From: a virus
Direction: 5' to 3' (one strand)
IMG/VR virus record: IMGVR_UViG_3300025128_000300
Coordinates: 1-25,418 of that record
DNA: 25,418 nucleotides
Shown: positions 12,583 through 25,205 of the stretch, piece after piece
Layout of the letters: every line of letters starts with the position of its first letter
How positions within the stretch are numbered: position 1 is the first letter of the stretch
Notes under the pieces: generated by a model
The model's input: only the letters and a program-made list of their open reading frames with translations
The model's database searches: none
What the model was told of the DNA's origin: nothing
Program-made: the position numbers and the translations under genes

Positions 12583-15500
12583 ATGAATGAAAAATTTATA
12601 CTTGGGCTATATAAGAAATACGCTCCAAACATTACTATTACTGATAACAAGCTAACAGAAATACAAGAGTATTACCAAGGTAATATGACAGCTTTTGTTC
12701 AGGACTTTAATAGCCAAGTACTAAAAGACTCAGACATAAAACTAGATCCACTAAAAACATCTGATTACGGTAAAGACCTATCAAACAAACTATTCGATAT
12801 AACTCAACAAAACAAAGACTATCAAAAAGAACTAAAAGAGTTTAGAGATACACAAGAAGAAAGAAGGGCAGACAAAGAATCAAAGACTATTGATCCTACT
12901 AAGTTTGATCCTTTATCAGGTATAACAAATCAATTATTAAGCGGTAACCAAACATACACAAAAGACTTTTTTCTATTAAAAGAAATCTTTGAACCATTTG
13001 ATTTTGAGGTTGAAATGATAAATGATAATAGAGAGGATATTAGTGACGAAGAGTATCAAGAGTTTCTAGATGACGCAGCAAACAACATAAATCCAATACC
13101 AACCGACTATGACTTTGATACAAAACCTACTATAAGACTAAAAAAGGGTGATCAAGTTTTTGAAATACCTTTAAACCTTGATATACTTGCTCAAGGAAAT
13201 AATGTTGAAAACTTTGAAGAGATACAAGAAAACTTAAAAAAGTTTTTTACTGATAATGTAGATCAGTCATCAGAGGAGTATCAAAACACAACAAAATATT
13301 TATCACAAGAATATCAACAGCTTGTGAGAGATAAACTACTTGTCGAAACGTTATCAGAAGAAGAGATAAACAGCATAAATAATCTTGTTGACAACACTGA
13401 CATACTAAATGAGTCTGCAGATAAATTTCACTTTTCTCAGTTTACGGGCGCAGGTCAAAAGTATACTCAACTTATAAAAGACGCAAAAGAACAACTATCT
13501 GAGGATGGTGTTAATGACCCAACAGACGGCCAAATTGAAGAGGTTGCTAAAAACTTACTTCAAAGACAGAAAGTAAACGAATTAAAAAAACAAAAGTTAG
13601 AAGATTTTCTCAGTGAAAAGGGTGAAGAGTACAACGCTCGTTACTTCGTATCAGACATGCAGCTTGCAACTCAGCAAGCACAATTAATAGCAGATGAATT
13701 ACCATTTTTAGAGTTTGACATAGAAACGTTTAGCAACGACACTGATGTTAAAATGCTTGACTTAGTTAACAGAAGTTATGACGTATTAACTAATTCAAGA
13801 CAAGCTAGATATAACATGACAGAAGAAGATCAAGCAAACATTAACTCGCTAGCTAAAGCAGTTAGTGAAAAAATATATGATCTAAATAGTAGATTAAAAA
13901 CTAACGCTGCTAAAATAGAAACTGTTTCAAACATTGAAGATGGTGTCCAGCTTAGCTTAAAAAACTATAACCAAGCATTAAGATTTGTAGATAAAATATC
14001 AACTTTTGCATCAGCTATGCCAAAAGCCATGCTTAGTGCAGCGGTAAGAACACCACAAGAACTAGCTTTATTAGCAAACGTACTTAACTTTACTAAATCC
14101 AAAGAAACTGTAAAGGAAATTATAAAGGATCTTTATTCGCCAGACAGCGAGATGTCAAAGTTTGAAGCTGATTTTTTTGAAGATATAATGAAATCAGCAA
14201 ACAGGTATGAAGACTCAGCTGCAAGCCTTGGAGCTATAGAAGGTGGAAGAGACTTTGGTAATCTAGTTATAGACACAACCGCGCAGTTTTTACCTTTAAT
14301 TGGAATAACAGCAGCTGCAACATACCTTGGAAGAGGAGCTGGTATAGTTCCTTTCTTAACTATGTACGGTATAGGTAAGGGTATGAAGATGGGTGAAATA
14401 AGCTATGAGAACAAACTAAAACCACTTGCTGACCGAATGTCACCTGAGCAGATAGCCATGGTTTCTAGTGGCCACGGGTTAGCTGAGGCAACGTTTGAAT
14501 ACTTAACTACAGTTCAGTTAATAAAAAGAATAGCTAGACTTAAACAAACGGGTAAAGTGGGTAATCTAAAACCATTTGGAAAAAAGGCATTAGGCCCAGA
14601 CGCTGAAGAGTTTGTGAAGAGTAGATACACTTGGGGTACGTTAGGTTACGGTCTTGTAGCTGAACCTCTTGGTGAATTTTTTACTGAAATAACACAAAAC
14701 GCTATTGATGGTGAACCTTTACTACAAGGTGCAGATATAGCTGCTTTTGGTGGTTTATTAATGGGTGGTGGCGTAGGTGTGTTTAGTGCTTTACAAGGAC
14801 TGTCAACAGCTTATTTAAGTGATGCGCAAGCTTTTAAAGACATAAAAGATGACCTTAGAAAAAAGCGTTACCTTGAAAAGAAGCTGGAAGATATAATACG
14901 TTTAAGAGAACGTGGTGCATTTACTAGGTTATCTGAAAAACAAAAAGCTAAGATAGAACAAGATGCCAGAAAAGAACTAGAAGCTTTTGATAAAGAGTTT
15001 GCAAAAAAATACAAAAGGCTTGTTGAGACAAGAAAAATAAGTAAACAAGACCTTGCATTACTAATGCGTATAGATGCTCAACAACAAAAGCTTAGAGATG
15101 ATAATCAAAGATTAGAAGATGACTATAAAAATAAATCTATACCATACGAGGTTTATGACGCTCGTAAAACTGCTGTTGCATTAGAAGCTGAGTTAAACCA
15201 AAAGCAAAAAGATGCTTTTCTTCAAGTAGATGGTAGTTACTTTATAGCTTTAAAAGCTGGTGATGAAAAAGATATTGAAACATATAATAAATACATAGAC
15301 AAAGCTAGACAAGAGGGTGTTGCACCTGAGGGTGTAGAAAAAAGAGCTGAACAATTATTTATTAAAGATGAATACTTAAAATCATTAAAAGAGTTTAAAG
15401 AGTTGTACAAAGATACAAAAGATCTTGTAATAAAGAACTTTACAATAAAACAAGCTGTAGATTTTTATAAAAAATTAAAAGCACTTAAACCAGCTGAGAT

Positions 15501-18500
15501 AGAAAAAGCAATTGTAGAAATAAGATCTGGAAAGTTAAATGGGTTTGAAATACCATCATCAGAATCAAATGATGGTAAATATTATGTCGTAGGTATTCAA
15601 GAAAACGCAATTAAAAATAACAGGCCTTATACTATACCACATGAGATAACTCACTATGTGTTTGATAAAAGTTTTTCAGAGTTAGGACTTGACAAGAAAC
15701 AGGCTGCAGAAGCTACTAAAACTCTTGCAGAGGGTTTAATACTATATAGTAAAGAACAGCTGCCAGATGTTTATAATAAACTTGAGGCGCTTGGTTTAGT
15801 AGAAGGAAGGTTACGTAAAAAGCTTGATATACCTATTGATTACGTTGAGGTTCCACCTGTCTGGTTTGAAGCGTTTAAAGAGGGTAATCATAAAGTAGAA
15901 GATCACGCAGAGTTATTTCACGCTGTTATTAAACAGTTTGAGGGTGAATTTAATACTGACTTTAAATTAAGAACACCTCGTGAGCTTGTTACATGGTGGC
16001 AAACTTACATAAATGAATACATATCAACAGTAGCTAGTAAAGCTAAAAGAGCTGTAAACGCGCCGGTTAAAAAAAGTACACAAGCAATAGTTGATAACGA
16101 TCCAAGAGGCTACGCTGTACGTAGAGATAAAATAAATGAGTTTGTAAAAGACATAAGCGTTAGCATTGAAGCGCAAGAAGAAGAAACTGAAAAGCCAGTA
16201 TATAATTGGGATGATGACATAGCAAACGCAGTTATGAAGTATGCGATAGATAATAAAATATTTAACACATATATACTTGGTAAACAAATGGATAAATCTC
16301 AACCACCATCGCAGTTTATACAAGAAGTTTATAGGGAGTTAAGTGTAGGTCCTGCAAGAACTTACGATCCAAATAAAATTCTTGATAATAAAAACAGACC
16401 TGACTTCTTTGGTTGGATAATGAAAAACCTAAGGTTTAACGCCTTAGACGTTAGTCTTGAGTCTATAAAACAAAAAACACAAGAAGGTAAAACTGTTGAC
16501 ATTGAAGAGGCAAGAGGTATAGCGGCAGAAACAGGTACAACAGTAGAAGACTTTGGTTTTACACAAGTAGCAGATAAAATAGGTGTAACACCAGAACAGT
16601 TAAAAGCCATAAGTGATGTTGTATTTAATGAAATGGCTAGATATAAAAAAGGTGTAGATGAAGGCGTAACATATGACGCAGATCTATCACCTATATATTC
16701 AGAGTTAAATAAAAGATTTGCACAAGCTACAGATAAAAATCCAGGTGGTGGTAACTGGAGGGCTATAGCACCTTTATTAAAAGATTTAAAAACATTTATA
16801 GAAGGTAACACATCAACTATATTAACAGAAGTTACTAATGAGTACGCTTCTAAAAACATACCACAGATTATAGAAAAAGTAATTGATGGTCAAAGAGATA
16901 AAGGGTTTGTACCTTATCCGCAGTGGGTAGGTAAAAAAATAGCTAGAGAGTTAAAGTCAGAAACAGGTAAGAAATCTGGACCGCAACTAATGCGAAAGAT
17001 ACCATCGGAAATAACAAAGCTTATAAGCAACCCACAGCCTCTAGTAGATATATACATGCCTAAGGGTAAAGCAAGCCAAGGTAAAAAAGAAGGTTTGGCT
17101 ATACAGCTAGCACAAAGAGTAGCAAGAGAAGCACTACAAAACGACTTACTTAACTTTATAAAAACAGGCGATTTAAAAAACTCACCTATAACAGAAAGAT
17201 TACAGCAAACGCAAAGTTTATTTGATAGAGTTTTAAGTGAAGCTAAAGCCGCAGAAGTGCTAAGACAAGGAGACAAAATTAAAAAATCTTTTTCAGGTTT
17301 TTCTACGGTTGATCAACAAAAGATATTTGAAGCATCAGGCTTAATTATTGATGCAATAGCAGATGGAGCGTTAGTAGAAGCAGCTGTTAGAATGAATTTA
17401 AACTTTAGAGCTGAAGATAAAATAAAGAAAATAGTTAGAGCTTTTGGAAGAACCATATTTATATACGACAAGTTTAGAAAGCTAGCTAAAAAATTAAAGC
17501 TAGATATAACGGGTAAAAATATAATTAGCCTTGAGGATTTTATAAAAGCTCAAAAAGATGATTTGACAAGTGATCGTGAGGTATTTAATCAAACTTTAAA
17601 ATCAAAACGATACACAGACAAGAGCATGAAGGACTTAGAGGAAGGCGGTAGAGTTACAGAGGCACGTTTAGCAGAGCAAGATTATGCTAAAAAATTATTT
17701 AAAGACTTTGGTAACAATCCAAAAAAAGTATTTGTTTATCTTACTAAATTTCAACAAGGCCATACATATACCGCTTCTAAAATACGTGGCGGAAGAAGTC
17801 AAAACTACGCAAGCGTAGGAGATTACAGAAAAGATATATTTGAGAACACACTTGGTATAAAGATAGAAAAAGTAAGTAAAGGTTTTAATCTAATATATAA
17901 CAATGAAACAACATTTGTTTCTAGCGAAGAATATAAATTAAACAAAGTTACAGGAGGAAAAGATGATATAGGTGCAGTAATGAAATATACTTATGGTCAA
18001 AGTAACGCAGAAGCAGCACCACAGAGAGAAGCTTTCTTTAATTGGTTTGACTTTCTTTCTAAAAGAATAGGAGCTCAGGATGAGTATGGTAATGTAATAT
18101 ATAATAAAGAAGACTTTATAAGAGCTTTAATGGGTCAGCAGGGTAGCACAAAGAGCATGCTAAGAAGAATGGCACCGGTTAGATGGAAATTTATTGGTCA
18201 ATACACGGGTCAGGTAAGATACGAACATACCATACCAGCACAATGGGTTTTGACATACGTTGCTGATATGTATTTAGGAGATGGTAGTGTAACAAGAGCA
18301 ACTGTTGACAAACTATTAACACAATATGAAGTTGCGTTGATACCAAAAACAATGGATGATCAGATACCTATGGGAGCTTTAATGGCTAGAGGTTATAAGC
18401 CTGGTGACAGCGCGTTAAGAAATAGATACTATACTATAGAAAACTTTGGTAAAAAAGATTTTTATGCTGTACAAGATTTAAAAAATCCAAAAGTTATACT

Positions 18501-21261
18501 TGGTAGAGCATTTACAAAACAATCTCTTGCAAAATTAGGAATAAAAAAGAGTTCACAACAAGCATCAGATTCTAATGCATCACAGAAATTTATACTAGCC
18601 ATGAAACGATCATTAGATCCTAACGCTAAAAGAAAAGGAGCTAGTATCATAGACTTTGATGACACATTAGCTAAGACTAAATCTAACGTACTTTACACGC
18701 TTCCTAACGGCGCGAAAGGTAAAATAGATGCTACAGACTTTGCTTTGCGCTCTGAAGCCTTAGAGGATGAAGGAGCGGTTTTTGATTTTAGTGAGTTTAG
18801 TAAGGTAAAAGCTGGTAAACGTGGGCCTTTCTTTAACAAAGCTAAGGCACTAAAAGATAAGTTTGGTAACACAGATATATTTGTTTTAACAGCAAGGCCA
18901 CAAAACGCTGCGCCAGCTATACAAAAGTTTTTAAGTGGTGTTGGTCTAGATTTAAAATTAGAAAACATAGTTGGTTTAGAAAACGGTACACCTGAAGCTA
19001 AAGCAGACTGGATAACAGGTAAAGTTGCTGAAGGTTATAATGATATATTGTTTGCTGATGATGCTATAAAAAATACTAAAGCAGTGGCTAAAGTTTTAGA
19101 TGTGTTTAACATTGGCGGTAAAATATATCAAGCAAGAATTAAGTTCAGTCAACAAGGAGCAACGTCAGAAAACTTAAATAAAATACTAGATGAAAACAAC
19201 CCTGATAGCCCTGTAGTTGGTAGAGATGTAGACAAAACAGAAGCAGCAGAGAAAGGTAGACCAGGATTTTGGTTAACAGAGTTATTTAACTTAAGATCAA
19301 AAGTAAATTTAGTTTTTGTACCACCATCAGCAGAAGATTTAAAAGGTTTATGGGATAATCATATAGCAGGTAAAGGTAGAAAGGGTGAATCTGATAAAGT
19401 ATGGTTTGAAGAAACTATATTAAGGCCGTATGCTAGAGCTGAAAGGGCAATGGACAGAATAAAGCTAAGAGTTAGAAATCAAATTAATGACCTTAAAAAG
19501 AGGTACGGTAAAGACTTTGTGAATAATTTATATACTAATAACGTTACACCAGAGTTTACAGAGATGGACGCTGTTAGAGTATATTTATTTCAACAAGGTG
19601 GACATGATACACCTGGTATAACAACGCAAGAGTTTGACAAGCTTATTGATTACGTCATGAAAAATGATAGAATAAAAAGCTTTGCTGATGATGTATTCTC
19701 AGTATTAAATACAAACATAGATACAGCTCTATACCCAGAGGCAACGATATACCCACCACCAACACAATATTGGAAACAACAAGATATAAACTCTGATGTT
19801 GAGTTTATATTCAAGATAATAAGAGAGGTTGTTCATGGTGAGTTTATAGAAAATAGATATAGTGTTTTTACACCTGATAACATGAATAAAATTGAGGCAA
19901 TATACGGCACTCAATTTAGACAAGCACTAGAAGACATGTTCTATCGTATGGAAGAAGGTGTTAATAGAAATCAAAGTCAAATTAATAACCCTTGGATTAA
20001 GTGGTTAAACTTTGCTACAGGTAATATAATGTTTGTTAACGTTAGATCTGCTTTACTACAGTTTATATCATCAACAAACTTTATTGAATTAACTGGGCCT
20101 AACAATTTATTTAATACATTAGCAAGAGTTTTAGACAGTAAACAATGGGCAGCAGATTTTAAAACAGTTTGGAACTCAGAGTTTTTAAAAGTAAGAAGAG
20201 GTAGAGGTAAAATTGATGTTGTACAAGAGGAGATACAACGAGCTGTGTCATCTGAAAAAGATCCATTTTTACGCTTAGCAAGTATACTACAAAATAAAGG
20301 ATACGCACCTACTAGATTTATGGATAGTTTAGCTATCGCGTTTGGTGGTGCTGCATATTACAGAAACCAAGTAAACTACTATGTAGAACAAGGTATGAAT
20401 ATAGTTCAAGCAGAGAGAACAGCGATGAGAGATTTTAGAGAAAAAGCAGAAGCATCTCAGCAATCAGCAAGAGCAGATCTAATATCTATGCAGCAGGCTA
20501 GTGTTGCAGGTAGAATATTCTTAACGTTTCAAAACGTTACAATGCAGTACACTAGATTGGGTAAGAAAGCACTTAGCGACATGAAAAATGGTAGAAGAGT
20601 CAGAAATGCAGATGGTACATTTAAGTCACTAACTGATAGTAGATTAGAACAAGCTTGGCAAATGGGTCAGTTCTTAATGTATCAAAACTTATTATTTGCT
20701 GGACTACAAAAAGCTATAATACTGTTATTTGCTTTAGGTGAAGGTGACGAAGTTGAAGAAAAACAAAAGGTAGATTATTTAAACGCTGTTCTTGATTCAG
20801 TATTACGAGGTAGTGGTATAGTTGGTGGTATGTTATCAGTAGCTAAGAATATAGGTATTGAATTATCAAGAGGTAACAGAAGTAATTTAGATGTTAAAGT
20901 ATTAGATATATCACCTACGATATCTACTAAATTTAGAAAAGCAGCAAAGATAATTAACGCTATAGGTAGAGGTGATAGAATAGATGATCTATTAATTGAA
21001 GTACCATCATTCGTATATGGTCTTCCTACAGATAGAGTTGTTAGATTAATAAGACAAATTGAAGCAGCGATTGATCTTCATGATCAAGGTTATAAATCGT
21101 ATGAGAGAATACTAATGGGTCTTGGTTGGTCAACATATGACTTTGGCTTACCTTATCCTCCTAGTATAATAGAAAATATTAACATTGATGATGATGGGCC
21201 GAAAAAGAAAAGTAAAAAGAAATCAAAGTCTAAAAGTAAATCAAGGGCTAAAAAGAAGTAA
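12583..21261 (+). CDS. Giant ejected polyvalent protein: metallopeptidase plus HAD domains
   Basis: At 2892 aa this one gene takes a third of the window. It starts 5 nt after the previous stop. Visible parts in order: an acidic helical N-terminus (1-540); Gly-rich hydrophobic segments at 567-604 and 716-740; a highly charged coiled coil at 747-890; a zinc-peptidase motif HEITH at 1020-1024, with E1110 in DHAELFH as a possible third ligand; a HAD-phosphatase domain with DFDDT (2024-2028), T2103 in VLTARP, K2140 and DD 2159-2160. A long helical C-terminal part contains WIKWLNFATGNIMFVNVRSA, and it ends in a Lys/Ser tail with 13 Lys/Arg in the last 19 residues. Position matches T7 gp16 (1318 aa), the DNA-translocating ejection protein, but I see no lytic transglycosylase motif. 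The multi-enzyme layout fits large polyvalent proteins that phages inject with DNA. Domain motifs are seen; the injected role is inferred. Confidence 0.8.
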   Translation: MNEKFILGLYKKYAPNITITDNKLTEIQEYYQGNMTAFVQDFNSQVLKDSDIKLDPLKTSDYGKDLSNKLFDITQQNKDYQKELKEFRDTQEERRADKESKTIDPTKFDPLSGITNQLLSGNQTYTKDFFLLKEIFEPFDFEVEMINDNREDISDEEYQEFLDDAANNINPIPTDYDFDTKPTIRLKKGDQVFEIPLNLDILAQGNNVENFEEIQENLKKFFTDNVDQSSEEYQNTTKYLSQEYQQLVRDKLLVETLSEEEINSINNLVDNTDILNESADKFHFSQFTGAGQKYTQLIKDAKEQLSEDGVNDPTDGQIEEVAKNLLQRQKVNELKKQKLEDFLSEKGEEYNARYFVSDMQLATQQAQLIADELPFLEFDIETFSNDTDVKMLDLVNRSYDVLTNSRQARYNMTEEDQANINSLAKAVSEKIYDLNSRLKTNAAKIETVSNIEDGVQLSLKNYNQALRFVDKISTFASAMPKAMLSAAVRTPQELALLANVLNFTKSKETVKEIIKDLYSPDSEMSKFEADFFEDIMKSANRYEDSAASLGAIEGGRDFGNLVIDTTAQFLPLIGITAAATYLGRGAGIVPFLTMYGIGKGMKMGEISYENKLKPLADRMSPEQIAMVSSGHGLAEATFEYLTTVQLIKRIARLKQTGKVGNLKPFGKKALGPDAEEFVKSRYTWGTLGYGLVAEPLGEFFTEITQNAIDGEPLLQGADIAAFGGLLMGGGVGVFSALQGLSTAYLSDAQAFKDIKDDLRKKRYLEKKLEDIIRLRERGAFTRLSEKQKAKIEQDARKELEAFDKEFAKKYKRLVETRKISKQDLALLMRIDAQQQKLRDDNQRLEDDYKNKSIPYEVYDARKTAVALEAELNQKQKDAFLQVDGSYFIALKAGDEKDIETYNKYIDKARQEGVAPEGVEKRAEQLFIKDEYLKSLKEFKELYKDTKDLVIKNFTIKQAVDFYKKLKALKPAEIEKAIVEIRSGKLNGFEIPSSESNDGKYYVVGIQENAIKNNRPYTIPHEITHYVFDKSFSELGLDKKQAAEATKTLAEGLILYSKEQLPDVYNKLEALGLVEGRLRKKLDIPIDYVEVPPVWFEAFKEGNHKVEDHAELFHAVIKQFEGEFNTDFKLRTPRELVTWWQTYINEYISTVASKAKRAVNAPVKKSTQAIVDNDPRGYAVRRDKINEFVKDISVSIEAQEEETEKPVYNWDDDIANAVMKYAIDNKIFNTYILGKQMDKSQPPSQFIQEVYRELSVGPARTYDPNKILDNKNRPDFFGWIMKNLRFNALDVSLESIKQKTQEGKTVDIEEARGIAAETGTTVEDFGFTQVADKIGVTPEQLKAISDVVFNEMARYKKGVDEGVTYDADLSPIYSELNKRFAQATDKNPGGGNWRAIAPLLKDLKTFIEGNTSTILTEVTNEYASKNIPQIIEKVIDGQRDKGFVPYPQWVGKKIARELKSETGKKSGPQLMRKIPSEITKLISNPQPLVDIYMPKGKASQGKKEGLAIQLAQRVAREALQNDLLNFIKTGDLKNSPITERLQQTQSLFDRVLSEAKAAEVLRQGDKIKKSFSGFSTVDQQKIFEASGLIIDAIADGALVEAAVRMNLNFRAEDKIKKIVRAFGRTIFIYDKFRKLAKKLKLDITGKNIISLEDFIKAQKDDLTSDREVFNQTLKSKRYTDKSMKDLEEGGRVTEARLAEQDYAKKLFKDFGNNPKKVFVYLTKFQQGHTYTASKIRGGRSQNYASVGDYRKDIFENTLGIKIEKVSKGFNLIYNNETTFVSSEEYKLNKVTGGKDDIGAVMKYTYGQSNAEAAPQREAFFNWFDFLSKRIGAQDEYGNVIYNKEDFIRALMGQQGSTKSMLRRMAPVRWKFIGQYTGQVRYEHTIPAQWVLTYVADMYLGDGSVTRATVDKLLTQYEVALIPKTMDDQIPMGALMARGYKPGDSALRNRYYTIENFGKKDFYAVQDLKNPKVILGRAFTKQSLAKLGIKKSSQQASDSNASQKFILAMKRSLDPNAKRKGASIIDFDDTLAKTKSNVLYTLPNGAKGKIDATDFALRSEALEDEGAVFDFSEFSKVKAGKRGPFFNKAKALKDKFGNTDIFVLTARPQNAAPAIQKFLSGVGLDLKLENIVGLENGTPEAKADWITGKVAEGYNDILFADDAIKNTKAVAKVLDVFNIGGKIYQARIKFSQQGATSENLNKILDENNPDSPVVGRDVDKTEAAEKGRPGFWLTELFNLRSKVNLVFVPPSAEDLKGLWDNHIAGKGRKGESDKVWFEETILRPYARAERAMDRIKLRVRNQINDLKKRYGKDFVNNLYTNNVTPEFTEMDAVRVYLFQQGGHDTPGITTQEFDKLIDYVMKNDRIKSFADDVFSVLNTNIDTALYPEATIYPPPTQYWKQQDINSDVEFIFKIIREVVHGEFIENRYSVFTPDNMNKIEAIYGTQFRQALEDMFYRMEEGVNRNQSQINNPWIKWLNFATGNIMFVNVRSALLQFISSTNFIELTGPNNLFNTLARVLDSKQWAADFKTVWNSEFLKVRRGRGKIDVVQEEIQRAVSSEKDPFLRLASILQNKGYAPTRFMDSLAIAFGGAAYYRNQVNYYVEQGMNIVQAERTAMRDFREKAEASQQSARADLISMQQASVAGRIFLTFQNVTMQYTRLGKKALSDMKNGRRVRNADGTFKSLTDSRLEQAWQMGQFLMYQNLLFAGLQKAIILLFALGEGDEVEEKQKVDYLNAVLDSVLRGSGIVGGMLSVAKNIGIELSRGNRSNLDVKVLDISPTISTKFRKAAKIINAIGRGDRIDDLLIEVPSFVYGLPTDRVVRLIRQIEAAIDLHDQGYKSYERILMGLGWSTYDFGLPYPPSIIENINIDDDGPKKKSKKKSKSKSKSRAKKK

Positions 21262-21615: not shown

Positions 21616-22077
21616 ATGATTAGTAAACACATAAGTATGCGTGAAGGCACGTATAGCGTTACAGCAACAAGATTAGGTTTAGAAAACAAACCAACTGAAG
21701 AACATCTTAACAACATGAAGTTGTTAGCTGTAAAAGTGTTTGAACCACTTAGAGAGTGGGTAGGTGGTCCTATTAGAATAAATTCATTTTATCGTGGACC
21801 AGAGTTAAACAAAGCTATCGGCGGTAGTAATAAGTCACAACATTGTCACGGGCAAGCTGTTGACATAGATGACGTGTATGGACACAAAACAAACGCTGAG
21901 ATGTTTAACTATATAAAAGATAACTTAGAATTTGATCAAATGATCTGGGAGTTTGGCGATAGCAAAAATCCAGACTGGGTACATGTAAGTTATGTTAATC
22001 CAGGCGAAAACAGAAACAGATGCTTAGTAGCGTTTAGAAAAGATGGAAGAACTCAGTACGCAAACTACGCAGCTTGA
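21616..22077 (+). CDS. M15-type peptidase endolysin
   Basis: A 153-aa zinc peptidase of the M15 (D-Ala-D-Ala carboxypeptidase / L-Ala-D-Glu endopeptidase) type that cuts peptidoglycan cross-link peptides. The family signature SxHxxGxAxD is intact at 74-83 (SQHCHGQAVD), giving zinc ligands H76 and D83. The third ligand is H123 in DWVHVSY, with the probable catalytic E112 in MIWEFGD just before it. The preceding GGPIRINSFYRGPELNKAIGG (50-70) is the usual lead-in to the motif. It has no signal peptide, so it needs a holin to reach the wall. Length fits single-domain phage M15 endolysins. It starts 4 nt after the one-TM gene, and its 3' end overlaps the next small gene by 35 nt. Confidence 0.93.
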   Translation: MISKHISMREGTYSVTATRLGLENKPTEEHLNNMKLLAVKVFEPLREWVGGPIRINSFYRGPELNKAIGGSNKSQHCHGQAVDIDDVYGHKTNAEMFNYIKDNLEFDQMIWEFGDSKNPDWVHVSYVNPGENRNRCLVAFRKDGRTQYANYAA

Positions 22078-22174: not shown

Positions 22175-22286
22175 ATGGAACAATAAAAAACCAGAAAGTA
22201 AAGTAGTATTTATAATATTTGTACTACAGATCACCTGGTTAATAACCATACTTGTTGCACATTACATTTTTAAACTTTGGACATGA
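22152..22286 (+). CDS. Second tiny one-TM protein of the lysis cassette
   Basis: A 44-aa frame, ATG at 22152 to TGA at 22284-22286. It overlaps the preceding 43-aa gene by 23 nt and shares an ATGA stop/start overlap with the lipoprotein gene. A basic N-terminal head (MIQTIRNKWNNKKPESK) is followed by one strongly hydrophobic helix at 18-40 (VVFIIFVLQITWLITILVAHY) and a short tail KLWT. The basic head predicts N-in topology. A small holin-like or accessory lysis protein is plausible; no family recognised. Both the overlaps and the composition argue that it is real. Confidence 0.66.
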   Translation: MIQTIRNKWNNKKPESKVVFIIFVLQITWLITILVAHYIFKLWT

Positions 22287-22750
22287 CAGATAAACAGAGA
22301 GACTTAGGTAGACTTATAACGTTAGCAATACTACTCAGTGTATTACTTATAGGTATATTATCTAGTTGCTCACCTTTGTTATATGATCGTAATCAAGTTA
22401 TGGTAACGCATGTATTAGCGTTAACTGAAATGGGTGACACTGTTAAAATAAGAATACAAGATATACAACCACAAAGGATGTACAACGTAGTTGGCTACGA
22501 CTTTGTAAGATGGCAAGATAACAGGTATTATGTACCACACTATGATCGTCATTACGATTATAGATATCATGACAGCAGGTGGAGATACCATGGTAGTCCA
22601 AAAGGTAACTACGGTTACATAACACCAAACCCTAATATAAATAATAGCCCACCTATATCTGTAGGTAGTGGCCAAACTACTGGAGGTAGCGGTGCTCCTG
22701 TTGCAAGTAACCCTGTTACTTCAACTGGTGGAGGTAAAAAATTTAATTAA
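22283..22750 (+). CDS. Outer-membrane lipoprotein in the lysis cassette (outer spanin candidate)
   Basis: I place the start at ATG 22283, inside the ATGA overlap with the previous stop; an in-frame TTG at 22277 is less likely. The 155-aa product has a lipoprotein signal: basic head, hydrophobic LITLAILLSVLLIGIL and lipobox LSSC with C29 as the lipidated residue. After it comes a Tyr/His/Arg-rich stretch (VPHYDRHYDYRYHDSRWRYHG) and a Ser/Gly/Pro/Asn-rich disordered end. The residues after C29 (SPLLYDRN) lack the acidic export tag of surface lipoproteins in Bacteroidota, so it probably faces the periplasm. A lipoprotein after an endolysin suggests an outer spanin working with the coiled-coil TM protein at 21318-21611. 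Confidence 0.74.
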   Translation: MTDKQRDLGRLITLAILLSVLLIGILSSCSPLLYDRNQVMVTHVLALTEMGDTVKIRIQDIQPQRMYNVVGYDFVRWQDNRYYVPHYDRHYDYRYHDSRWRYHGSPKGNYGYITPNPNINNSPPISVGSGQTTGGSGAPVASNPVTSTGGGKKFN

Positions 22751-22751
22751 T

Positions 22752-23003
22752 ATGCCAGAGATAAGAAAAACAACAAAAGGTAAAGGAAGAAATTTTAGAA
22801 CTACAGAAGAAGGAGCAGGCATGACTGAAAAGGGTGTTAGAGCTTACAGAAAGAAAAACCCTGGTAGTAAATTAAAAACAGCCGTAACAGGTAAAGTAAA
22901 ACCTGGTAGCAAAGCAGCTAAGCGTAGAAAGTCATTTTGCGCTAGATCAAAGGGATGGAAAAGTAAAAGAGGTCTTGCGGCAAGACGTAGATGGAAATGT
23001 TAA
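22752..23003 (+). CDS. Small basic Cys-containing phage protein (DUF6321-like)
   Basis: ATG at 22752, one base after the lipoprotein stop. A longer reading from 22668 in the same frame would overlap the lipoprotein gene and is not needed. The 83-aa product contains GAGMTEKGVRAYRKKNPGSKL, KPGSKAAKRRKSFCARSKGW and a closing RRRWKC. I remember this motif set (KAYRxxNPGSKLKTAVT then KRRKSFCAR) from a family in marine phages annotated, I believe, as DUF6321; the number should be checked. It is very rich in Lys and Arg with two Cys near the end, so nucleic-acid binding is possible. Function unknown. Confidence 0.82.
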   Translation: MPEIRKTTKGKGRNFRTTEEGAGMTEKGVRAYRKKNPGSKLKTAVTGKVKPGSKAAKRRKSFCARSKGWKSKRGLAARRRWKC

Positions 23004-23006
23004 GAT

Positions 23007-23165
23007 ATGAAATCAAGAGGACTAGGAGATAGTATACATAAGTTCACGAGCAAAACAGGTATCAAGTCTGTAGTAGACAGAGTATCAAACGGCTTAAATA
23101 TACCTTGCGGATGCGAAGGTAGACGTGAAGCTTTGAATATGTTGTTTCCTTATAAAAACAAATAA
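23007..23165 (+). CDS. Small CGC-motif protein
   Basis: A 52-aa frame from ATG 23007 (gttaagatATG) to TAA 23163-23165. The sequence MKSRGLGDSIHKFTSKTGIK is followed by VVDRVSNGL, IPCGCEGRREALNMLFPYK. The arrangement GLGDxI...TGIKxVV...CGCxxRxxxLNxLFPY recurs, as I remember it, in phages of Bacteroidota and marine phages. The Cys-Gly-Cys with flanking basic residues could hold a metal, but two Cys are too few for a zinc finger alone. It is in a run of tiny genes with 3-nt gaps on both sides. Function unknown. Confidence 0.8.
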   Translation: MKSRGLGDSIHKFTSKTGIKSVVDRVSNGLNIPCGCEGRREALNMLFPYKNK

Positions 23166-23167
23166 TT

Positions 23168-23311
23168 ATGGGTAAAATTAGTCCGGCGTGTAAAGCCGCA
23201 GCAAAACGTAAATTTAAAGTATGGCCTAGTGCATATGCTTCAGGATGGGGTGTAAGATGTACTAAAGCAGGTGGTCCAGGTAATTACGGTGGAGGTAAAA
23301 AGAAAAAGTAA
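23168..23311 (+). CDS. Tiny basic protein with FKVWPSAYASGWGVRC motif
   Basis: A 47-aa frame from ATG 23168 to TAA 23309-23311, sharing one base with the next start (TAATG). It reads MGKISPACKAAAKRKFKVWP, then SAYASGWGVRCTKAGG, and ends GNYGGGKKKK. The VWPSAYASG-x-x-V motif between two Cys recurs in short basic proteins of phages and some large viruses, from memory. No function is known to me. It is part of the tightly packed basic-protein run. Confidence 0.8.
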   Translation: MGKISPACKAAAKRKFKVWPSAYASGWGVRCTKAGGPGNYGGGKKKK

Positions 23312-23418
23312 TGCCAGGTCAACACGCTAAAAAACCAAAATGTTGGAAAGGTTATAGAAGAAAACCAGGTACAACCAGGTATTCTAAGGGTAGTTGTGTA
23401 AAAATAAAAAAGAAGTAA
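23311..23418 (+). CDS. Tiny basic protein with CWKGY...KGSC motif
   Basis: A 35-aa frame, ATG 23311 to TAA 23416-23418, joined to both neighbours by one-base TAATG overlaps. It has KPKCWKGYRRKPGTTRYSKG, then SCVKIKKK. CWKGYxRxPGTxxxSKGSC is a motif I remember from many marine phage genomes. Two Cys 18 residues apart in a Lys/Arg-rich chain suggest a metal-bound or disulfide-bridged mini-fold. Function unknown. Confidence 0.75.
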   Translation: MPGQHAKKPKCWKGYRRKPGTTRYSKGSCVKIKKK

Positions 23419-23840
23419 TGTTAAAAGATAAACAATTAAAACAAGTCGTTAAAGAGCTTAAAGGCGCGTCAAAGATGCACGCACAACAAGCAAAAAAAGT
23501 ACAAAAGCATATAGATGCTATGAAGAAACCTAAAATGCAAAACAAAAAAAAATATGGCGAGTACTTAACTAAACATGGTTTAAAGCCTTATGAGTTTGAA
23601 TATCGCGATTATTTAAATAAAGCAAAAAAAGATTCTCTTAAAAATAAAGTTGACACTGTACACTATAAAGATGTTAAAGGTCAATACTACGAGTTAATAA
23701 GAAAAGGTGGTAAGAAACAATCTGAAAAAAAAGTTGAAACAGACTACGCTAAGAAAAAGATAGCTCAGCGAATAGCTAAAATTAACGCTGAGTATAATAA
23801 GCCTAAAATGCTTAGAAATAAAAGAAAAAACTACTGTTAA
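23418..23840 (+). CDS. Basic coiled-coil protein with KPKM tail
   Basis: ATG at 23418 overlaps the previous stop by one base; an upstream in-frame TTG (23394) is less likely. The 140-aa product opens with a Lys-rich helix KQLKQVVKELKGASKMHAQQ (5-24). It continues with KKPKMQNKKKYGEYLTKHG, a mixed middle (DTVHYKDVKGQYYELI) and a helix ending in KPKMLRNKRKNYC. The opening helix (KQLKxVxKxLKGASKMHAxQAKxxQKxI) resembles small helical proteins recurrent in marine phages. No catalytic motif. It shares its C-terminal tail with the next gene product. Function unknown; nucleic-acid or virion-interior binding is possible given the charge. Confidence 0.82.
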   Translation: MLKDKQLKQVVKELKGASKMHAQQAKKVQKHIDAMKKPKMQNKKKYGEYLTKHGLKPYEFEYRDYLNKAKKDSLKNKVDTVHYKDVKGQYYELIRKGGKKQSEKKVETDYAKKKIAQRIAKINAEYNKPKMLRNKRKNYC

Positions 23841-24048
23841 CATGGAAACAATAGGTAAGCCAAAAAGAAAAATAACATCAACGGGAAGAAGAAGAAGAGA
23901 CTGGAAAAGCTGTAGAACATTTGGTCAGAAGGTAGGTCACATTGCTAGACAAATACCTAAAGTAGTTTTACCTGTGGCTGCTGGTTATGCTTTAATTAAA
24001 GGACTAAAGAAACCAAAGATGCTCAAAAATAAAAGAAAATCCTGTATA
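23799..24048 (+). repeat. Duplicated KPKM...KRK C-terminal tail (two copies)
   Basis: Copy 1 at 23799-23837 encodes KPKMLRNKRKNYC and copy 2 at 24010-24048 encodes KPKMLKNKRKSCI, each at the extreme 3' end of its gene. DNA is similar in the middle (AAAATGCTTAGAAATAAAAG against AAGATGCTCAAAAATAAAAG). A shorter version, KKPKMQNKKK, occurs at residues 36-45 of the 140-aa protein. Confidence 0.7.
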
Positions 24049-24051
24049 TAA
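23842..24051 (+). CDS. Basic protein with short hydrophobic helix and KPKM tail
   Basis: A 69-aa frame starting 1 nt after the previous stop (gttaacATG). Residues 1-35 are very basic (GKPKRKITSTGRRRRDWKSC). Residues 40-54 are a short hydrophobic helix (IPKVVLPVAAGYALIKG), long enough for membrane contact but marginal for a span. The end KPKMLKNKRKSCI nearly repeats that of the preceding protein. Its stop shares one base with the next ATG. No family recognised. Confidence 0.78.
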   Translation: METIGKPKRKITSTGRRRRDWKSCRTFGQKVGHIARQIPKVVLPVAAGYALIKGLKKPKMLKNKRKSCI

Positions 24052-24305
24052 TGCCAAAGAGTAAAGTAAAAGGTGGTGGAACAAGAAAGGTTTGTTTGCC
24101 ATACGCAAAATATAAGAGTATGAGTAAAGCAGAAAGGCAAAAAGTAATTAATGCCAAGAGATCTGCTGCAGCTCAAGGAAAATATAAAAGATCTAGTAAG
24201 TCAAATGTAAAAGGTGCTAGGAAAAAAGGCGCTACATTACGTGACTGGTTCCAAAAAGAAAACTGGGTTAACATAGCCAACGGCAAGCCTTGCGGCGCAA
24301 AATGA
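24051..24305 (+). CDS. Small basic protein with LRDWFxKENWV motif
   Basis: An 84-aa frame from ATG 24051 to TGA 24303-24305. It contains GGGTRKVCLPYAKYKSMSKA, a Lys/Arg/Ser helix (QGKYKRSSKSNVKGARKKG), and a closing LRDWFQKENWVNIANGKPCG. The combination GTRKVCLP...KSMSKxxRxKVxxAK...RSSKxNVKGARKKGATLRDWFxKENWV recurs, from memory, in marine phages. The last segment also resembles a short motif in other phage and large-virus proteins. Two Cys lie at the two ends. It ends in an ATGA overlap with the membrane protein gene. Function unknown; DNA or RNA contact is a guess from charge. Confidence 0.83.
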   Translation: MPKSKVKGGGTRKVCLPYAKYKSMSKAERQKVINAKRSAAAQGKYKRSSKSNVKGARKKGATLRDWFQKENWVNIANGKPCGAK

Positions 24306-24439
24306 AATTTAACTTTTTTGATTTAAACGAAAATGGTAAATATGATTGGTGGGAATATATACTACCGATATTAATATTGTTAATTATTGAAGTTATAGCT
24401 GAGGTTATAGCTAGATTTTTGACACAGCCGTTTTTTTAG
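24302..24439 (+). CDS. Tiny membrane protein with EF-hand-like loop
   Basis: A 45-aa frame from ATG 24302 (ATGA overlap with the previous stop) to TAG 24437-24439. It opens MKFNFFDLNENGKYDWWEYI. D7, N9, N11, K13 (backbone position), D15 and E18 occupy EF-hand loop positions 1, 3, 5, 7, 9 and 12, with Gly at 6. A hydrophobic helix follows at about 19-40 (ILPILILLIIEVIAEVIARF) carrying two glutamates, E30 and E34. It is the last + strand gene, and its final 29 nt overlap the convergent glycosyltransferase gene. No family recognised. Confidence 0.72.
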   Translation: MKFNFFDLNENGKYDWWEYILPILILLIIEVIAEVIARFLTQPFF

Positions 24440-25205
24440 CCACACTTCTTATTATCTTCTGGCCTTTCATCCAGCCAGTATATTCAACTTTTTTTCTAGA
24501 CATATCGCTTAACACGTGCCACGTAAGCAAACCATCACGGTCTAATTTACTAACATATTGGTTTTCTAATATACGATCATGAGCCGAGTGCTTTGTAGTA
24601 TATAAAGGTAAATGCCAACTGTGAGGATCACACTCGCCGTTACCATCTTTTACGTTCTTAGCCATGTATGAATTTTTCTTTACACTCTTATGAAAGAAGT
24701 CAAAGCCAATAATACTCAAGTTCTTATGAGTTTTAATTTCCCTAATAAAATATAGTATTGTTAAAAACCCAGCTGAAGGCCTGAGTTGTAAACTGTATAA
24801 TGAATTACCAAAGCCGTTCCATAATTCTTCTAGCTCTGCATCTGACCACATCTGAGTATAAGGCATACCCTTTGGCAGGTGATCTTCTAATATCCAGTTC
24901 TTAAGTAAAAAATTACCACGACATCTATTAAGTAATATTTCAACGTCTTTAAACTTACCCTTTGTAAATTCTTCATTACGTCTTATCCAAACAGGCGCTC
25001 TAAATTGACCAGTAACCCATATGTTTGTTTTACTACCTAATTGTTTTGTTTTATCATCTGCTACTGTATCAACAGCTCTACCAAAGCGCACAACGATATC
25101 ATGACTGTCTATAAACTTACCATGATCATGGTGCATTAATTCTACAGAGTTGCCAACAAGTATTACTGATTTATTTTTTACAAGCTGTTGTATACGTTCC
25201 ACCAC
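24411..25205 (-). CDS. GT29 (sialyltransferase-fold) glycosyltransferase
   Basis: A 264-aa protein with the sialylmotifs of glycosyltransferase family 29. Motif L at 13-45 reads SVILVGNSVELMHHDHG then IDSHDIVVRFGRA. Motif S at 143-171 reads PSAGFLTILYF then LSIIGFDFF. Motif VS is H209-x4-E214 (HDRILE). Known GT29 enzymes use CMP-sialic acid, where the His of VS is the catalytic base; the donor here may be another sugar. It has no signal peptide or TM segment, so it is cytoplasmic. Its GTG start at 25205 (or 25202) overlaps the upstream gene by 28 nt; a TGA lies upstream in frame and there is no ATG. The stop overlaps the convergent membrane gene. Likely targets are lipopolysaccharide, virion glycans or modified DNA bases; the sequence does not say which. 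Confidence 0.86.
   Translation of the reverse strand: MVERIQQLVKNKSVILVGNSVELMHHDHGKFIDSHDIVVRFGRAVDTVADDKTKQLGSKTNIWVTGQFRAPVWIRRNEEFTKGKFKDVEILLNRCRGNFLLKNWILEDHLPKGMPYTQMWSDAELEELWNGFGNSLYSLQLRPSAGFLTILYFIREIKTHKNLSIIGFDFFHKSVKKNSYMAKNVKDGNGECDPHSWHLPLYTTKHSAHDRILENQYVSKLDRDGLLTWHVLSDMSRKKVEYTGWMKGQKIIRSVAKKTAVSKI

Follow-up and report, generated by a model that had tools for sequence, protein, structure and literature searches.

The window, meaning the whole 25,418-base virus record analyzed here, carries structural genes for tail and virion, a 2892-aa open reading frame (ORF), and holin-like, M15 endolysin, and lipoprotein-like genes, followed by a packed run of seven small genes (p1 to p7; positions 22752 to 24305). 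The 2892-aa ORF is a single frame in the structural region (12583 to 21261), and its residues 1 to 1139 had no PHROG match at an E value of ≤0.01; Elemovirus phages hold a giant structural gene in a similar place. The endolysin gene (21616 to 22077, plus strand) matched PF08291 (E value, 5e−15) and the endolysin family PHROG 894 (E value, 9e−32). The lipoprotein-like gene (22283 to 22750, plus strand), recognized from the ORF list and its translation and with homologues at 30 of 82 loci, is the immediate upstream neighbor of p1. Two relatives of the window, L005 (3502 to 3822) and L034 (2367 to 2687), encode a small heavy-metal-associated-like protein (GLTCSMCSFS) between the holin-like and endolysin genes. 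After the run, on the opposite strand, lies a glycosyltransferase family 29 (sialyltransferase-like) gene (24411 to 25205, minus strand). Past this glycosyltransferase, genes in L005 (7128 to 9152) and L011 resemble Kdo-8-phosphate synthase and CMP-Kdo synthetase (N-termini), and their sequences suggest a phage sugar-modification cassette. The promoter scan of the run gave nothing above chance, and no terminator was found on the plus strand within the seven genes. The nearest relatives of the window structural proteins are those of Flavobacterium, Maribacter, and Cellulophaga podophages, and a search of bacterial genomes with p7 returned one MAG contig only, from a Cryomorphaceae bacterium; the window virus therefore likely infects a member of the Bacteroidetes.

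The seven ORFs encode products of 83, 52, 47, 35, 140, 69, and 84 aa, joined by gaps of 3, 2, and 1 nt and by three 1-nt overlaps (TAATG or similar). All are basic (pI 9.9 to 11.7; K+R content 19 to 37%), with net charges at pH 7 of +24.5, +5.6, +11.5, +12.6, +26.8, +18.6, and +20.5 from p1 to p7, which sum to about +120. Cys residues number 2, 2, 2, 2, 1, 2, and 2 in the same order. This composition goes beyond what chance would give: among 1378 other small predicted genes from comparable viral loci, pI exceeded 10 in 340 and 51% lacked Cys. ORF coordinates and pI values bear out the preliminary description of seven tiny, very basic proteins with joints of ≤3 nt, and the four motifs it quoted (CGC..LFPY, VWPSAYASG, CWKGY..KGSC, and LRDWF.KENWV) occur in the products. 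Its wording "mostly Cys-bearing" was right as to the presence of Cys and too weak as to its extent, given that all seven carry it. Pooled dN/dS ratios, covering the five genes with diverged homologues, were 0.16 (p1), 0.14 (p2), 0.13 (p3), 0.39 (p4), and 0.07 (p7), which supports these five as coding sequences under purifying selection; the full-length homologues of p5 and p6 are identical copies only.

By profile score, p1 (22752 to 23003, plus strand; GAGMTEKGVRAYRKKNPGSKLKTAVTG..RRKSFCARS..RRRWKC, with Cys63 and Cys83) is a DUF6321 protein, matching PF19846 at 44.4 bits (E value, 2.6e−11), above the Pfam gathering threshold of 28.5 bits; the module is termed M1. DUF6321 is known mostly as a C-terminal domain of long cyanophage proteins, whereas p1 is a free 83-aa protein. 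Matches to p1 were found in 134 phage records at an E value of ≤1e−3, and DUF6321-like p1 matches in 424 of the searched phage records at ≤0.01. An AF2 model of p1 (pLDDT 85) has three helices. The CGC..LFPY module of p2 (M2; 23007 to 23165, plus strand) has relatives at 62 of 81 p7-seeded loci and at 78 of 80 loci seeded with the unrelated M8 module, and its CxC is retained in 100 of 101 distinct sequences; tblastn of p2 against phage records gave two records. The VWPSAYASG module of p3 (M3; 23168 to 23311, plus strand), which bears one Cys pair, has relatives in all five seeded sets. For p4 (CWKGY..GSC; 23311 to 23418, plus strand) the matches are weak but specific, to positions 755 to 778 of PHROG 3477 (E value, 0.002) and to an intermediate sequence at L054 (phmmer E value, 6e−4; Z=1e5), so that its sequence is probably an M4 module.

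The first 35 residues of p5 (23418 to 23840, plus strand) match a recurrent helix module (M5; KELKGASKMHAQQAKKV) seen in relatives including Pelagibacter phage HTVC027P; next come an extension peculiar to the contig and, last, a KPKMLRNKRK tail, and the full-length homologues of p5 are confined to the near-identical contigs L002 to L004. The copies of p6 (23842 to 24051, plus strand; RRRRDWKSC plus the tail KKPKMLKNKRKSCI in common with p5) come from the same contigs, and no diverged homologue was found, making p6 the weakest and least certain member of the run. The two tails, KPKMLRNKRKNYC in p5 (23800 to 23840) and KKPKMLKNKRKSCI in p6 (24008 to 24048), are nearly alike and share KPKML(R/K)NKRK; L005 and L010 have a 49-aa protein with this type of tail too. 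From its sequence the tail looks like a duplication or an addressing tag. Several pelagiphage-type module genes (L235, 3593 to 3865; L293; L137; L163; and others) end in a single-Cys tail, ARGCGxVMxxRRKKTK, which may be an addressing tag.

The last gene, p7 (24051 to 24305, plus strand), encodes CLPYAK..MSKAERQ and LRDWFQKENWV..PCG (M7) with one Cys pair. It has 396 relatives in IMG/VR, and tblastn against phage records returned none. Its half-motifs stand in reverse order in HTVC027P and in Prochlorococcus T7-like phage P-SCSP2. When p7 was compared with the pelagiphage type using a model built without p7 relatives, the N half scored 14.1 bits (best of 5000 shuffles, 12.3) and the C half 9.8 bits, below its best shuffle of 12.0; the C half alone matched P-SCSP2_22 (E value, 0.004) and L388 (E value, 0.006). 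At most, these scores suggest that the two types are related by circular permutation.

Two further Pfam families bear on the run. Against DUF5872 (PF19197; threshold 27.5 bits), p3 scored 15.5 bits and p7 had no match, placing both window genes below the cut-off, which P-SCSP2_22 (53.3 bits) and L388 (51.3 bits) exceed. The family corresponds to an M3-M7 fusion: p3 aligns to positions 10 to 38, whereas P-SCSP2 and HTVC027P proteins of the p7 type cover 53 to 112 and fused freshwater phage proteins 7 to 112 (E value, 2e−13). In freshwater-type phages the p3 and p7 modules form one 111-aa protein (L388, 6418 to 6750, and about 36 similar loci) that passes the DUF5872 threshold. Thus, p3 and p7, separate genes in the window, resemble the two halves of a single fused family, p3 at a subthreshold score and p7 through its P-SCSP2 and HTVC027P relatives. 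DUF5754/Tlr6F (PF19058; threshold 27.4 bits) had no match in p1 to p7; it is weakly matched, at 18.2, 18.1, 17.0, and 19.5 bits, all below the cut-off, by the M8 module of relatives of the locus, a module missing from the window. Tlr6F has been reported in polinton-like viruses, virophages, giant viruses, and phages, with no function given (PMC4642659; PMC12220804). A full-text literature search turned up just two papers that name DUF6321, DUF5872, or DUF5754, and no functional work on them.

To place the run among other viruses, 13 module profiles (14 models, with two forms of p7) were scanned over loci gathered from five seeds: the window p7, a pelagiphage p1, a Prochlorococcus-phage p3, a pelagiphage permuted p7, and an M8 (DUF5754-like) protein. 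The seed module was accompanied by one or more of the others at 77/81, 59/80, 80/80, 74/74, and 80/80 loci, respectively, each set comprising the 80 best matches, with loci inside a set related to each other; around phage thymidylate synthase (thyX), a control gene taken from a phage that itself carries p1, at least one module was present at 5 of 80 loci. Module density was 1.8 to 5.1 per 10 kb in the seeded sets versus 0.07 in the control, the profiles having been trained on the same loci except the control. Nearly all extra module matches lay ≤2 kb from the seed module (1047 of 1099; 95%) and on the same strand (1094 of 1099), in 84 distinct orders and 63 distinct sets. The surroundings of p7 relatives hold p1 to p3 together with further small basic Cys proteins that have no counterpart in the window. 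These comparisons support the view, at the level of sequence, that the seven genes are drawn locally from a kit of short basic modules that viruses of several unrelated bacteria have in common. The preliminary description gave the motifs as recurrent in marine phages, and the co-occurrence count it proposed as a check upholds this, at frequencies far above the thyX control.

Modules of the kit occur both as separate genes and as parts of one chain. HTVC027P carries p3-, p7-, p5-helix-, and p1-like genes in a single run; P-SCSP2 has p3-, helix-, p7-, and p1-like separate genes in the interval between the scaffold and major capsid protein genes, and in P-SCSP1c p1 directly follows the major capsid protein. 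In the T4-like cyanophage proteins S-RIM8 gp114, Syn9 gp114, S-SM1_115, and S-SCSM1_29, M3, M4, and M1 are fused, with an LRDWF/p7-like stretch upstream. Profile matches in S-RIM8 gp114 (591 aa; charge, +47) had E values of 1e−13 (M3), 1e−14 (M4), and 5e−22 (M1), the LRDWF stretch being seen by eye, and the window p1 and p3 matched the same protein directly by phmmer (E values, 4e−4 and 5e−5; Z=1e5). The window shares M1, M3, M4, and M7 with this cyanomyovirus gp114 type (PHROG 727/3477; T4-GC 119), clearly for p1 and p3 and weakly or through intermediates for p4 and p7; the cyanomyovirus form is one long protein encoded between the terminase genes, whereas the window has small separate proteins. 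In S-N03 and S-CREM2, M1 stands at the C terminus of an acidic protein. In S-RIM8, S-RSM4, S-SM1, S-N03, S-CREM2, and Syn9, the fused or M1-bearing gene is flanked by the genes for the small and large terminase subunits. For M8, a match to PHROG 220, "minor head protein and DNA pilot," was obtained (E value, 2.9e−12); in Aeromonas phage 4L372XY, an M8 domain is part of a protein of 308 aa whose gene is the second one past the portal gene, and in Elemovirus phages the M8 gene, annotated as hypothetical, adjoins GroEL. The fusion of four of the seven kinds in single cyanophage proteins argues for a shared job, as had been proposed from the co-location of the genes.

Across distinct sequences, the two Cys residues of each module are present or absent jointly, often at distant positions. 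In M3 the pair occupies alignment columns 4/33 in some sequences and 7/32 in others, a further form has neither pair, and the alternatives are never mixed save in three rows that resemble alignment shifts. Both Cys are present in 22 M9 sequences and neither in 17, with no singles; M8 has two pairs, each lost as a unit; and the extra pair of M1 arises in two ways, as NINC..RIC or as TNCK with RWCC, separated by about 45 columns. When the Cys columns were left out of tree building, these changes fell into a small number of distinct events, one each for M9, each M8 pair, and M1 39/86, two for M1 69/79, and more for M3. Among Cys-bearing module genes, even counts outnumber odd ones (870 versus 95, figures inflated by shared ancestry), compared with 256 even and 413 odd among other small genes from comparable loci; most of the odd-Cys module genes encode M3 plus an additional tail bearing one Cys. 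Such joint gain and loss is difficult to account for unless the two Cys are in contact, and it points to one intramolecular disulfide per module as the simplest reading, a shared metal site being less likely. An AF2 model of a fused M3-M7 relative (pLDDT 74; pTM 0.43) shows M3 as a helical hairpin (residues 4 to 12 and 19 to 31) with Cys in the first and last turns, at the open end, a predicted placement such as a staple would need. A sequence search of solved structures with p1, S-RIM8 gp114, P-SCSP2_22, and an M8 protein gave no match, and neither Foldseek and VIA-align with the p1 model nor Foldseek with the fused M3-M7 model gave a credible one (best E values, 5.8 and 7.8; Z score, 2.1), which is no proof of a new fold. 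No nucleic-acid-binding fold was recognized among the modules.

Evidence from virions concerns larger proteins than p1 to p7. S-CREM2 ORF137 (108049 to 109521) was detected by mass spectrometry in CsCl-purified virions with four peptides and 4.1% coverage (PMC10665884, Table 3); only the last ~80 residues of this protein are the DUF6321 module, and the region of the detected peptides is not given. The whole protein is acidic (pI 5.0), and the charge argument therefore does not extend to it. S-SCSM1_29, with p7-, p3-, p4-, and p1-like modules, is labeled "virion protein" in its record, and the S-SCSM1 study included virion mass spectrometry (PMC9602691). Virion association of the fused relatives is thus supported, and since these long versions are found in purified particles, the kit is probably carried within the virus alongside its DNA; by extension, we infer that the separate miniproteins of the window are virion proteins too. 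The cryo-EM capsid of P-SCSP1u has no cement protein (PMC10575957), which excludes an ordered icosahedral decoration there and is still compatible with a disordered interior protein.

The reading that we favor, at about an even chance, is that the modules are late, virion-associated, disulfide-stapled basic units that bind packaged DNA or head proteins, the binding being predicted. They would be made late, alongside structural and lysis genes, and each would fold as a small, mainly helical unit with a single disulfide staple, formed after the particle leaves the reducing cytoplasm. Carried in or on the head, they would use their positive charge to bind packaged DNA or the head-protein surfaces that face it. 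Bacteroidetes-type phages, pelagiphages, and T7-like cyanophages would use them as separate miniproteins, and T4-like cyanophages as beads strung along one long protein. Condensation of DNA or binding of RNA, which had been suggested at the outset, is a prediction from charge, position, and virion presence; an interior head location, DNA binding, and a disulfide in preference to a metal site are likewise readings of these data. Shutdown of the host, suggested with them, is unsupported: the genes sit with lysis, capsid, and terminase genes, outside the early region, and early shut-off was set aside because of this late-gene setting. Basic proteins packed with DNA are familiar from the T4 internal proteins, the adenovirus core proteins, and sperm protamines, of which protamines use disulfides. 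The modules may work likewise, by analogy rather than by any shown sequence similarity.

The detection of fused relatives in virions would also suit proteins that, in the manner of T4 internal proteins, ride in the head, enter the next host with the DNA, and are freed by disulfide reduction, their targets being host nucleic acids, nucleases, or polymerase. The Cys pair would supply the redox switch, and the variability of the kit (its 84 orders) fits host-facing functions; however, strong purifying selection and near-identical motifs over hosts of several phyla better suit a conserved physical job, and the L/I-x-E prohead protease motif of T4 internal head proteins is absent from translated p1 to p7. 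We regard such packaged effectors as unlikely, although the proteins may still play some part once ejected into the next host. Somewhat doubtful too, and rather unlikely overall, is a role as head or neck accessory proteins that bind capsid, portal, or terminase and aid assembly or stability with no DNA binding. Relatives of the genes adjoin those for terminase, portal, scaffold, and major capsid protein, and M8 falls within a minor head protein family and in the 4L372XY protein near the portal, but +5 to +27 per small protein, at 19 to 37% K+R, exceeds what protein-protein contacts need, and the P-SCSP1u capsid is without cement density.

A metal-binding role, with two Cys completing a zinc site by dimerization or with His in late nucleic-acid-binding regulators, draws on the small size and basic charge of the proteins, on Cys pairs that stay together, and on the CxC of p2. 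In most modules, however, there are just two Cys, set far apart, and the consensus shows no conserved His to partner them. The M3 pair shifts position and is lost as a unit, which suits a disulfide; we consider this role very unlikely. Least probable is that unrelated small late genes have gathered at a hotspot and resemble each other through low-complexity Lys-rich sequence. All are Lys-rich, and p5 and p6 are poorly conserved, but the invariant non-Lys positions (PSAYA, LRxWF, SKLKTAVT, CARS, and RWxC), the single-chain fusions, and the nearly module-free control loci run against such chance likeness.

With the packaged, disulfide-stapled modules as the favored reading, what is new is the uniting of these families as one shuffled kit and the pairing of their Cys, no single protein being novel. 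The kit motifs are very common in aquatic viruses, and separate families to which no function is attached become a single testable question of how viruses hold or protect DNA in oxidizing water. More speculatively, and as a minority possibility, viruses at large may use a redox-timed nucleoid in which interchangeable basic modules are packed with the genome, locked by disulfides while extracellular, and loosened as these are reduced upon entry; it would serve phages infecting Bacteroidetes, SAR11, cyanobacteria, and Roseobacter and, via DUF5872 and Tlr6F/DUF5754, giant algal and polinton-like viruses. If true, such a nucleoid would be the first clue to what these conserved families do.
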